Assembly (NCBI GenBank): GCA_002749535.1
Contig: MZZL01000409.1
Location: forward strand, 421,041-485,040
DNA length: 64,000 nucleotides
Direction: 5' to 3'
Source of the DNA: Apophysomyces variabilis
Taxonomy: Eukaryota > Mucoromycota > Mucoromycetes > Mucorales > Mucoraceae
Each line of letters begins with the position of its first letter. Within the stretch, counting starts at the first letter, position 1. Positions 2,854-8,135 of this stretch are shown one piece after another. The translations under genes and the position numbers were made by a program. The notes under the pieces are model-generated. The model was not told the origin of the DNA. It saw only the letters and a list, made by a program, of their open reading frames with translations, and ran no database searches.

Positions 2854-4642
2854 TTACAAAGTTGAATTCTGTTTTCTATCAACTGTTCGCCAAGAATTAT
2901 TCATTACACCGCGGTAATTCCATACTGGATATTCTTGTTGGATATTGCCAGATGAATCCACTATTTACCAAAAGTCAGAAAAATACATGCATTTGGCCTT
3001 ATCACGACATGCATACCTGCTCTACTGACAATCCGGGTATTTCTCTTTGTATCAATTTGCACTCTCCAGAGACACCAACCCCATACATGGGTTGCTTTGC
3101 CTTCTGCTGAAGGCTGGTATAGTTCCGCTTGTGTCCATGTTCTACCGTCATCCCCTGAAACGTCTGAATAAAAAAGAAACAATGTGAGTTTTCTTATAGC
3201 TAGTGTACGTACAACAAATCTTTTACAACTTGCCTACTCGCTGGATGCTTCTTCCACCCCCTGAGAGAGCGTAACCCGAGACTACTCGTTTCTGTACGGG
3301 CTCTTCGTTGACGCCGTCCGCAGGATCACAAACATAGGATTGCACATTGTACTCGCCAATGGAAGGCATATTATCCCAAAACTTGTTGGCCTGCTCTTCC
3401 GTCTCTATCTACAATATATCTTGATTTTCAGTCATCCTGAAATGATGAACGTTTCAAAGTTATCCTACGCACATGATCGGGCAATATCTTATAATCTCTT
3501 CGTTGGAAATAAGATTCGGACTCGAAGTCCTGTATGCGCACTGCCTTTAGAAACTTGACGGAACGAGCGCCAATGTATCCTAAAATGCGGAATCAGCCAG
3601 TGTCACAGCGCACTGACAGGAGTTCGTTTCGTAATAGTAACCTGGTACAACCACACGAATGGGGTGACCGTGGTCACGCGTCAATGGGGCATAGTTCATC
3701 TGAAACTTTGTGTCAGTTTAATTGATCTTTTGAAGGCCGGTCTTACTTCATACGCCAGCAACACGTCGCCAAAAGGATCCCTACATTGCCAAATAGAAAG
3801 TGAGTTTGATACAGCACTCTCACATTTTAGGTCGCCCGTACAAAGCTTTCGTTAAAGGAATGGATGAACCATAGCACTGGTCTTCTTCACACTTTTTTTA
3901 GATAAAATATAGTCAATCGTCACTTTAAACTCGTCTGTGTGTGAATCAACTACTTCGTTTTTTCTTACCTGTTCTACGGAGCGAAAGTCTATATGCAATT
4001 TTTCAATGTCTTTCATAGACTTGCTCACTCCAATGCTTTCCAGAACATCTTTCAGTCGACACCCGCCATACACTGCATTACCAAGTGCACATGGACCCCA
4101 GATTACCTATTGAAAACGAGAGGTAAGAGAAACCATATAAAAAATGGTCTTGTCTTGTGCTCTCCCTTTCACCTACCCCTTTGGTATCTTTTACCCGATG
4201 CAGTCCATCACGGCGGTTTCCCTAGATTTACGGTTGTAAACGACTCTTGTTACACCCGCCACCGATCCGTTTGTCTTACCGCACACTTTTATTTTTTTTT
4301 CCCGTTCAACATGGTTAGTATCTTAAGAAATCGAACTAGGGATAACGGCTGTACCTGCATTGCCATCATCACATGGGTTTTTTCGAACCGTTCTTTTAGT
4401 TCCTTGACTGTGATATGGACGTTTTCCCCTTGAACACCTATTCCTTCAAAGCAAATTGAATGAGAGTCATCCAGGTCGGGTATTGGTCCATGAGATCGAC
4501 AAAAGAAGTTCTTCAATGGTGTGATATAGTGCTTGACTAGTTCAGGCGGAGAAGGTTCTGCGTTAAAGGGGGCGTCTTTACGAACGATCAGACTGGATAG
4601 TAGATCAGTTCTGTCAGGCTCATTATCATAATTTAAGGACAT
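2854..4642 (-). CDS. SUOX: Sulfite oxidase, plant-type architecture (molybdopterin domain without haem domain)
   Basis: Oxidises sulfite to sulfate using the molybdenum cofactor. Eleven exons read in frame. Exon 1 (from the ATG at 4642) has RKDAPFNAEP and FFCRSHGPIPDLD, close to plant sulfite oxidase starts, and no cytochrome b5 domain precedes it. The Mo-ligand motif CAGNRR is assembled across three exons, with Cys-Ala on a 6-nt exon at 4280-4285. Then follow GNAVYGGCRLKDVLE, DVLLAYEMN, RDHGHPIRVVVPG, IGARSVKFL, the dimerisation part with SGDDGRTWTQAEL and WGWCLWRVQ, and the C-terminal VWNYRGVMNNSW. One intron is GC-AG (AG|GCAAGT, exon ending at 3234). The protein ends in Ser-Thr-Leu, reminiscent of but not identical to the peroxisomal SNL of plant enzymes. 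About 390-400 residues, matching plant-type length. Confidence 0.9.
4280..4285 (-). other. 6-nt micro-exon of sulfite oxidase encoding Cys-Ala
   Basis: On the minus strand TGTGCG is flanked by a GTAAGA donor and an AAAG acceptor. The upstream intron (69 nt) has a perfect TACTAAC branch site; the downstream intron is 58 nt. Without this exon the coding sequence would read MAMQ-GNRR; with it the invariant Q-C-A-G-N-R-R is restored in phase 0 on both sides. The exon carries the molybdenum-coordinating cysteine. Inference from conservation and splice signals; no transcript seen. Confidence 0.8.
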
Positions 4643-6082: not shown

Positions 6083-7258
6083 TTAATCAAACCGTAATCT
6101 TTCCTCGTAAAATAGCAATAGCTACATAAACAAGTATGTTAGAAAAGGATCTCTAACCATCACCGAATACCTTTTCTGGCACTCGCTCATGTAGTTCCTT
6201 GACCAAATGTGCCGTCCTCTTTCCGTTCATCCTACATCCATTTTTTTATATTCAGTGCATGGCGTCGACCTTTAAATTCATGGATCTTACCAGCTCACGT
6301 AGGCTAACAGTTCTTGCTGTCGACGAGTATATTGAACTGTATGAATATCTCTCAATTCTGTCTGCCAATCGGTATCGGAAAGGGGCCAGTCAGATCCATA
6401 ACCAAGGACAAATCCTTGAGACCGATAGGTTACTGACAGATCTTCCTGCTCAATACCCTTTTGCTGGACAATTTGTTGATATTTTTCATGGATTGAATCG
6501 TAACTGCATTCTGTTGGTGTAGCTTCCACTACTGGTTCCCTTATCGCTGGCAACGGTGATGTTGGCGATTCTGCCATGGTTTCCCTCGTTGGGCTGATCT
6601 TTCTTGTTGTATTGATCTTCCTTTTCTTGCTTTTTGGTGCGTTGATTGGCCGTGGGTCATGCTTGTCCCAGTATGCTGCACATATTTCCGGACAATCCCT
6701 TTTTTCAGTAAAGGTACATCAATGAATGGAGTTTTCAAAGCTTTGAGATTATTAGCTATAGAGATGGAGACCTACTCATGCAGTACACTGGCTGGCTCCT
6801 GCGTATTGTACGCATCCTCATAGCCTTTCCATTTGACATGGTATTTTACCACCATACCCTTTTGTGATTTGTTTTTTCTTTCGTCAACCGGAAAACCGAA
6901 ATGTATCTATTCTATGCCTTACTCTGTATAGCTTATGACCAAGAAGCCTCTCAACCTCGTATTTCTCTGGCTCTTGCGCGTCTTCCTCGGGTTCTTGCAC
7001 AGACTCGGATAGATAGACAGTTTTCTTCCTTGTAGCATCCTTAGTTGAGGAACTCGCTGGTTCAGGAGTATCCTCTTCAACCAGCGTGTTCAATGGATCG
7101 GTTAACGAAGTCTGCATTACTGATTCCAGGATTGTCCTTTCACTTTGCAGATCCAAAGGAACGAAATCCTCTCCTTCGCTAATATCCTCTTGACTTTGTA
7201 AAAATGTAATGCCAGATTGACTTGGGGAATCGAGCACAATGACATCAGGTTCGGCCAT
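6083..7258 (-). CDS. HP1-family heterochromatin protein: chromodomain plus chromoshadow domain
   Basis: Nuclear reader of methylated histone H3 Lys9. Five exons read from ATG 7258. The N-terminal region is acidic and Ser-rich. The chromodomain starts at KYEVERLLGHKLYR, continues after an intron with GMVVKYHVKWKGYEDAYN and ends in CPEICAAYWDKH; the three aromatic cage positions (Tyr of KYEVE, Trp and Tyr of KWKGY) are present. The usual Trp of the TWEP motif is Gln (TQEP). A basic KSKKRK linker follows. The chromoshadow domain includes LLAYVSWMNGK, HLVKELHERVPEK and, on the last small exon, LLLFYEERLRFD. Head-to-head with the MAPK gene across 877 bp. Like Swi6/HP1 in layout, about 290 residues. 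Confidence 0.85.
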
Positions 7259-8135
7259 TGTCCACTACAAATTAATGCTTACAAGCAAGCCACGTATGAA
7301 CAGGCGAATCGTACGGAACATTTATTTTCCGTAACTTCGCTACTGGCTCTTCAGTCGCTTGCATAAGTAAACAGTTTTTCAGGAATCATTGATTCACTTT
7401 TTGCTTTTTGACAAGTTTGTTTGTCCCGCTTATGATCGAAAGTGGCAAGGGAAACAAGAACGAACGTTATCTTAAGTACCTAGCTAGAAATACGGCATGA
7501 CTCCGACCTCTGCACTATGACAACCCGTCTTGAGCAGAAGCAAAATATTTATTCTCGGTCAAAGTGGAACTTTTTCTATTCATCAGTCTAAAGCATTTGG
7601 AGTTTGACATAAGTCATTGTAGATAATTATATAATAATTGTAAGTCATTTGAGTAATAATCCTCCGCTGACGGACGCGAAAATGCTGATGTTTGGTACAT
7701 TCAAACAAATTCCGTGCATATCAGATTGACTAATGTCAGTTTCTTGGTGCAAAATTGGCCTTTCTACAAACACAAAACTTATTTCATGATATTTTAAATA
7801 TTCTATTCAATCAATGATGTAGCGTCGCCAGCCGCCTAGGCCACGCATCACCCGATCGTCCTCCCGAGTTGAATCCATTGCGAAAAATATCAGCGCCACA
7901 GTTGCACATAACTAAAAAGGCTTAAGCTATGCTGTTTGCCAGGCAAAGAGAAAGGAACCTGTTATCCATGAAAAATGTGATTATATTACGTGCTTACGAC
8001 GTAAAGTCTGGTCCACCGTGGAGTCGAAAAAGCGGTCAAATCAATTAAACAAATTCACGCCTGTGTAACCGCTTAAATGATCTGCCTACAGGGGGTTCAG
8101 ATGCCGCTTGGCGAACTGCTCTCTTTTCATTCATC
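7259..8135. promoter_or_regulatory. Shared upstream region of divergent HP1 and MAPK genes
   Basis: No coding frame is supported. Genes leave this 877-bp segment in both directions, so it must hold both promoters. It is AT-rich in the middle (7620-7810). No specific operator could be identified by eye. Confidence 0.4.

Follow-up and report, generated by a model that had tools for sequence, protein, structure and literature searches.

The minus strand of the window, which is the whole stretch of 64,000 bases analysed, carries a sulfite oxidase gene running from 4642 to 2854, which exon-by-exon reading resolved into 11 exons encoding 384 amino acids with zero internal stops (Table 1). The 10 introns measure 47-77 nt; nine belong to the GT-AG class and one, intron 9, to the GC-AG class. 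On the plus strand, a convergent neighbour (a 224-aa open reading frame at 2014-2688) stops 165 bases away from the stop codon of the sulfite oxidase gene and resembles eIF3 subunit M, as a 127-aa piece of it, typed by eye, matched PF18005 with 55.9 bits and PCI with 47.9 bits. A short open stretch on the minus strand (6772-6906) contains a Chromo domain (PF00385, 33.8 bits), perhaps belonging to a gene with introns that would also include the open stretches 6884-7264 and 6287-6718, in which zero Pfam matches were found at E 0.01. A protein search of the genome gave seven exon matches, all at the sulfite oxidase locus, and PF00174 (one match) and PF03404 (two matches) were likewise found at this locus only, in searches that proceeded exon by exon and scored the best candidates only, so that a diverged second copy could escape. 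Domains for molybdenum cofactor synthesis are present elsewhere in the genome, namely a MoaA-type domain (PF06463, one match) and MoCF_biosynth (PF00994, four matches), and the cofactor is therefore probably made.

Table 1. Exons of the sulfite oxidase gene and the introns discussed in the text.
Feature	Coordinates	Strand	Length	Description and basis
Exon 1	4355..4642	-	288 nt	MSLNYDNEPD...HVMMAMQ; gene model; homologues align from the N-terminus
Intron 1	4286..4354	-	69 nt	GTACAG...TAAAAG; perfect TACTAAC; retention gives an in-frame stop
Exon 2 (micro-exon TGTGCG)	4280..4285	-	6 nt	Cys97-Ala98; phase 0 on both sides; single splice solution; exact two-residue gap in models of three other Mucorales
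Intron 2	4222..4279	-	58 nt	GTAAGA...ATCTAG; best TACTAAC match 4/7; retention gives an in-frame stop
Exon 3	4177..4221	-	45 nt	GNRRDGLHRVKDTKG; gene model
Intron 3	4107..4176	-	70 nt	Gene model
Exon 4	3969..4106	-	138 nt	VIWGPCALGNAVYGG...FRSVEQ; gene model
Exon 5	3842..3891	-	50 nt	Gene model
Exon 6	3747..3780	-	34 nt	Gene model
Exon 7	3642..3699	-	58 nt	Gene model
Exon 8	3473..3579	-	107 nt	Gene model
Exon 9	3234..3408	-	175 nt	Gene model
Intron 9	3164-3233	-		GC-AG; TAG/GCAAGT...ATTCAG; inferred from the reading frame
Exon 10	3017..3163	-	147 nt	Gene model
Exon 11	2854..2960	-	107 nt	Includes the stop codon; protein end ...DRKQNSTL; gene model

The 384-aa model contains PF00174 (Oxidored_molyb, 152.1 bits) and PF03404 (Mo-co_dimer, 105.2 bits), both over the cut-off. 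These are its only two Pfam domains, a cytochrome b5 domain being absent from the N-terminal part, and the nearest Mucorales homologues are of similar length with the identical two domains. Among solved structures, the closest by sequence is the sulfite oxidase 1ogp (E 4.9e-86), the plant enzyme, followed by the group of 2a99 and 1sox, the chicken enzyme, and nitrate reductase scores lower (E 1.4e-45). The protein terminates in -STL and its relatives in, for example, -SIL, -AVL or -ANL, none of which matches the classical PTS1 consensus. Plant sulfite oxidase is described as a peroxisomal, single-cofactor enzyme with no heme domain (PMC10574614).

The six-base exon and the cysteine it encodes

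The initial annotation placed the end of exon 1 (MAMQ) at a GTACAG donor and the start of the next long exon (GNRRDG) after a TCTAG acceptor. Both junctions were seen as described: with splice boundaries marked by a slash, exon 1 ends as ATGCAG/GTACAG (4355), exon 3 starts as ATCTAG/GGAAAC (4221), and the micro-exon between them reads AAAAG/TGTGCG/GTAAGA. The interval between the two exons (4222-4354) is slightly wider than the limits first assigned to this arrangement (4223..4348). One- and two-intron choices leading from HVMMAMQ to GNRRD were enumerated, with donors limited to GT or GC and acceptors to AG, under an intron minimum of at least 20 nt in one run and of at least 35 and at least 20 nt in another. 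Within these limits, exactly one solution for MAMQ-CA-GNRRD (HVMMAMQCAGNRRD) exists in the 133-base interval, and it makes TGTGCG the sole source of Cys-Ala, as had been proposed. None of the single-intron solutions in the enumeration yields Cys-Ala; the open-frame choices listed give HGNRRD, HVMMGNRRD, HVMMAMQGNRRD or HVMMAMQVQPLSLGNRRD. When the 133-base interval was shuffled with its dinucleotides kept and six bases fixed at either end, any Cys-Ala solution appeared in 9 of 50,000 shuffles. The narrower pattern AG/TGYGCN/GT, with both introns of at least 35 nt, appeared in 23 of 100,000, falling to 0 of 100,000 with GTRAG after the exon. A search of the whole genome with the pattern TGTGCGGTAAGA hit three places, one of which is the micro-exon, the reversed-pattern control giving three forward and five reverse hits, and it has no bearing on the question. 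By these results TGTGCG, well within the limit of 15 nt for coding micro-exons, is a very small internal exon between canonical splice sites, and the conserved protein requires it.

Counted by hand along the alignments, the cysteine of exon 2 corresponds to residue 98 of 1ogp and, in the numbering of 1sox, to residue 185; PDB entry 3hbg is titled 'Sulfite Oxidase mutant C185S'. Cys97 of the micro-exon aligns with the known molybdenum-ligand cysteine of solved sulfite oxidases, in agreement with the role first assigned to it. According to one review, a single cysteine (Cys207 in rat) was invariant across the sulfite oxidase and nitrate reductase sequences known at that time and was probed as a molybdenum ligand through mutagenesis (PMC10574614). 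In a second review, bands assigned to Mo-S and S-C modes are reported to vanish in C207S (PMC9370002). The window gene supplies this conserved molybdenum-ligand cysteine of sulfite oxidase solely via the 6-nt exon.

Cys-Ala in the protein models of relatives

In a protein search, 7,992 candidates were scored and 6,687 passed, and the best 120 of these 6,687 were compared, each row being the representative of a 90%-identity cluster (P0011 represents 11 sequences). A residue is present at the cysteine column in 115 of the best 120 homologues; it is Cys in 115/115, and the next residue is Ala in 114/115. To call the motif QCAGNRR invariant was an overstatement: among the best 120 of 6,687, the Gln column can be occupied by Met, Glu, Arg, Ile or Val as well. 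The Mucoromycotina group makes up 37 of the 120 rows (35 by name and two lgn rows by similarity), with Cys-Ala in 32 and a gap in five, and the cysteine is missing in 0 of the 83 non-Mucoromycotina rows. Exactly Cys-Ala is missing from the models of Rhizopus azygosporus (P0011), Absidia glauca (P0033), and Phascolomyces articulosus (P0077). The model from Apophysomyces sp. BC1034 (P0001) lacks 17 residues, which correspond to exons 2 and 3, and that of Syncephalastrum racemosum (P0080) starts downstream of the cysteine region and gives no direct information. Two region-limited searches (7 and 20 proteins, all among the 120) contained no CA-less protein beyond P0011 and P0033. A FastTree tree, whose supports were not read, places the window protein beside that of Apophysomyces sp. 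BC1034, the closest of the 120 listed (86.1% over 367 aligned residues), so that the source is probably a relative of this genus; the three models with the exact gap fall in three separate clades. The nearest relatives of these three models that cover the cysteine stretch have CA (78.9%, 79.4% and 85.6% identity).

The database proteins devoid of Cys-Ala would seem to be mistakes of gene callers and not isoforms. That an invariant metal ligand was lost exactly and independently three times is far less likely than that a 6-nt exon was overlooked three times. The two introns are therefore probably an old pair in Mucorales, and the gaps in the protein models point to a micro-exon that is probably common to this order. 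The 32 Mucoromycotina rows containing CA are protein models compatible with the micro-exon or with loss of one or both introns. Among the proteins containing CA, P0010 (385 aa) comes from contigs whose length, 1,243 bases or less, leaves no room for ten introns of this kind; it therefore probably derives from spliced RNA or from an intronless gene. P0030 (376 aa) lies on a contig of 1,497 and also contains CA; both proteins are from other species and say nothing on skipping. Searching bacterial and archaeal contigs with P0011 returned two distant loci, which play no part in the comparison.

Several of these models are irregular in other ways. The Phascolomyces articulosus model starts at MAMQ and is disturbed past exon 3, and in the Absidia glauca model a further disturbance follows VVVPG, where intron 7 lies in the window gene; this is another sign of gene-caller trouble in an intron-rich gene. 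In the model of Lunasporangiospora selenospora (P0085), presumably a member of the Mortierella group, the stretch before the cysteine is dropped and the sequence resumes at RCAGNRR. This hints at an intron near the Q/C boundary there too, and intron 1 might predate intron 2.

The observation of a six-base exon is itself confirmed, and its reading as a micro-exon is strongly supported by the single splice solution, the low chance rate, the otherwise intact gene and the absence of the same residues from three Mucorales models. With a probability put at about 94%, TGTGCG is a coding micro-exon of 6 nt that is constitutive and lies in an intact plant-type sulfite oxidase gene of a Mucorales fungus near Apophysomyces. 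On the likeliest account, the micro-exon would be essential, and gene callers would have missed the sequence encoding Cys-Ala in the relatives.

Splicing signals and competing explanations

The TACTAAC branch site that the initial annotation noted before the micro-exon is a perfect match within intron 1, and the other nine introns of the gene reach 3-5 of 7 at best. Intron 2, with 4/7, is ordinary for the sulfite oxidase gene; the idea of a weak branch site in this intron was rejected because its value falls inside that range. The donors of introns 1 and 2 each show 6/9 matches to CAG/GTAAGT, the range in the gene being 4-8. The acceptor of the micro-exon is preceded by an A-run, with no pyrimidine tract. 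A 6-nt exon cannot hold the factors of both its splice sites together, and sequential removal of the two introns is therefore likely. The two short flanking introns would probably be removed in turn, by intron definition, with the perfect TACTAAC of intron 1 probably marking the micro-exon acceptor and presumably compensating for the missing pyrimidine tract. The six bases would in this way be joined between exons 1 and 3, generating an mRNA that encodes ...MAMQ-CA-GNRRDG... with the molybdenum-ligand cysteine. Inclusion of the micro-exon in the mRNA, the order of splicing and the role of the branch site are predictions made from the DNA.

An alternatively spliced micro-exon would open a regulated route, in which skipping under some condition gives a protein devoid of the molybdenum ligand and turns down sulfite oxidation. 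Skipping was said to keep the frame, and it does: the product has 382 aa and both Pfam domains are still detected, PF00174 with 136.9 instead of 152.1 bits and PF03404 with 105.2 bits in both forms. By consensus matches, intron 1 has no better donor than intron 2, and the mid-range donor and ordinary branch match of intron 2 do not argue against skipping, so that the sequence contains nothing to forbid it. Precedents for conditional use are found in Trichoderma virens Xlr2, whose 20-nt micro-exon is included depending on glucose (PMC11121469), and in a potato invertase, in which exon skipping is induced by cold (PMC8483784). However, the short form of Xlr2 is not described there as simple skipping, with zero reads linking exons 1 and 3 (PMC11121469). 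The perfect TACTAAC in intron 1 should also favour the micro-exon acceptor, although this is a modest argument, and the database proteins without CA are scattered models with near relatives that contain it. In-frame skipping with both domains kept is compatible with a switch without being evidence for one; the proposal that splicing turns the enzyme off gains no support from the present results, and regulated skipping in the window gene is considered very unlikely. Its extension to the order, in which regulated skipping in Mucorales would form a conserved valve that yields a folded, dimer-competent sulfite oxidase lacking the molybdenum ligand, tunes sulfite oxidation after transcription and may poison heterodimers, is regarded as very unlikely.

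Genuine absence of the cysteine, through decay of the gene or a changed function, would make TGTGCG a product of chance and would fit the three database models that are devoid of Cys-Ala. Against it, the remaining reading frame is intact, the cysteine is kept in 115/115 of the listed homologues with a residue at this column, and chance gives such a solution in only 9 of 50,000 shuffles; a pseudogene is rejected, and true absence as a whole is highly improbable. Least credible, and likewise rejected, is a stwintron, in which the whole interval would be one complex intron excised in consecutive reactions together with TGTGCG: two short introns are indeed adjacent and stwintrons are reported from fungi, but such excision would remove the Cys-Ala kept by listed relatives (Cys 115/120, Ala 114/120), and removal of intron 1 creates no donor at CAG/TGT but leaves CAG/TGTGCG/GTAAGA without a split donor, TGTGCG having its own acceptor and donor.

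Known micro-exons and significance

The micro-exon is of a known kind, given the precedents in invertase, CYP621A, a Phanerochaete P450 and Xlr2. Tiny coding exons have already been described, and what is special here is that the exon consists of just the metal ligand and its neighbour. The exon skipped in potato invertase is reportedly the 9-nt micro-exon, as Bournay is said to have described in 1996. In plants, the 9-nt micro-exon of invertase encodes part of the beta-fructosidase motif and was left unannotated in rice and maize (PMC8831610). Both this exon and that of the window gene are tiny, in frame and encode part of a conserved motif of an enzyme, whereas the former is 9 nt long, in phase 1 and belongs to a glycosidase, and the latter is 6 nt long, in phase 0 and supplies a molybdenum ligand in Mucorales. 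Cases on record from fungi are a 1-nt exon in Fusarium CYP621A and, within a P450 motif of Phanerochaete, an 8-nt exon (PMC12940212). The CYP621A exon resembles that of the window gene as a fungal micro-exon in a conserved motif that troubles automatic annotation; it was deduced from the structure of the gene in relatives. It differs as a single, frame-restoring nucleotide in the glycine codon of the P450 PKG motif, in contrast to two whole codons including a metal ligand. The Xlr2 exon is a further micro-exon of a filamentous fungus, and including it completes a functional motif, although it is condition-dependent and lies in a transcription factor. The exons of CYP621A and Xlr2 are supported by reads and RNA evidence, respectively, whereas that of the window gene is predicted from the DNA sequence. 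In Arabidopsis APC11, a single-nucleotide exon was found, 6 nt having been the smallest constitutive exon known before (PMC4674806); this plant exon of 1 nt, like that proposed for the window gene, is a constitutive micro-exon overlooked in annotation. Titles and abstract beginnings in an open-licence subset of the micro-exon literature on Mucor, Rhizopus or sulfite oxidase included none about the present exon.

A gene caller that misses six bases deletes the catalytic metal ligand from the one locus for sulfite oxidase that the searches of this genome returned. The same error apparently affects public proteins of Rhizopus, Absidia, and Phascolomyces, and a larger version of it that of Apophysomyces. 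For early-diverging fungi, the gene offers a clean test of annotation that takes micro-exons into account, and it can also serve to study how a spliceosome deals with a 6-nt exon that has a short intron on either side. Should RNA reveal skipping, the two codons of the micro-exon would amount to an off-switch.
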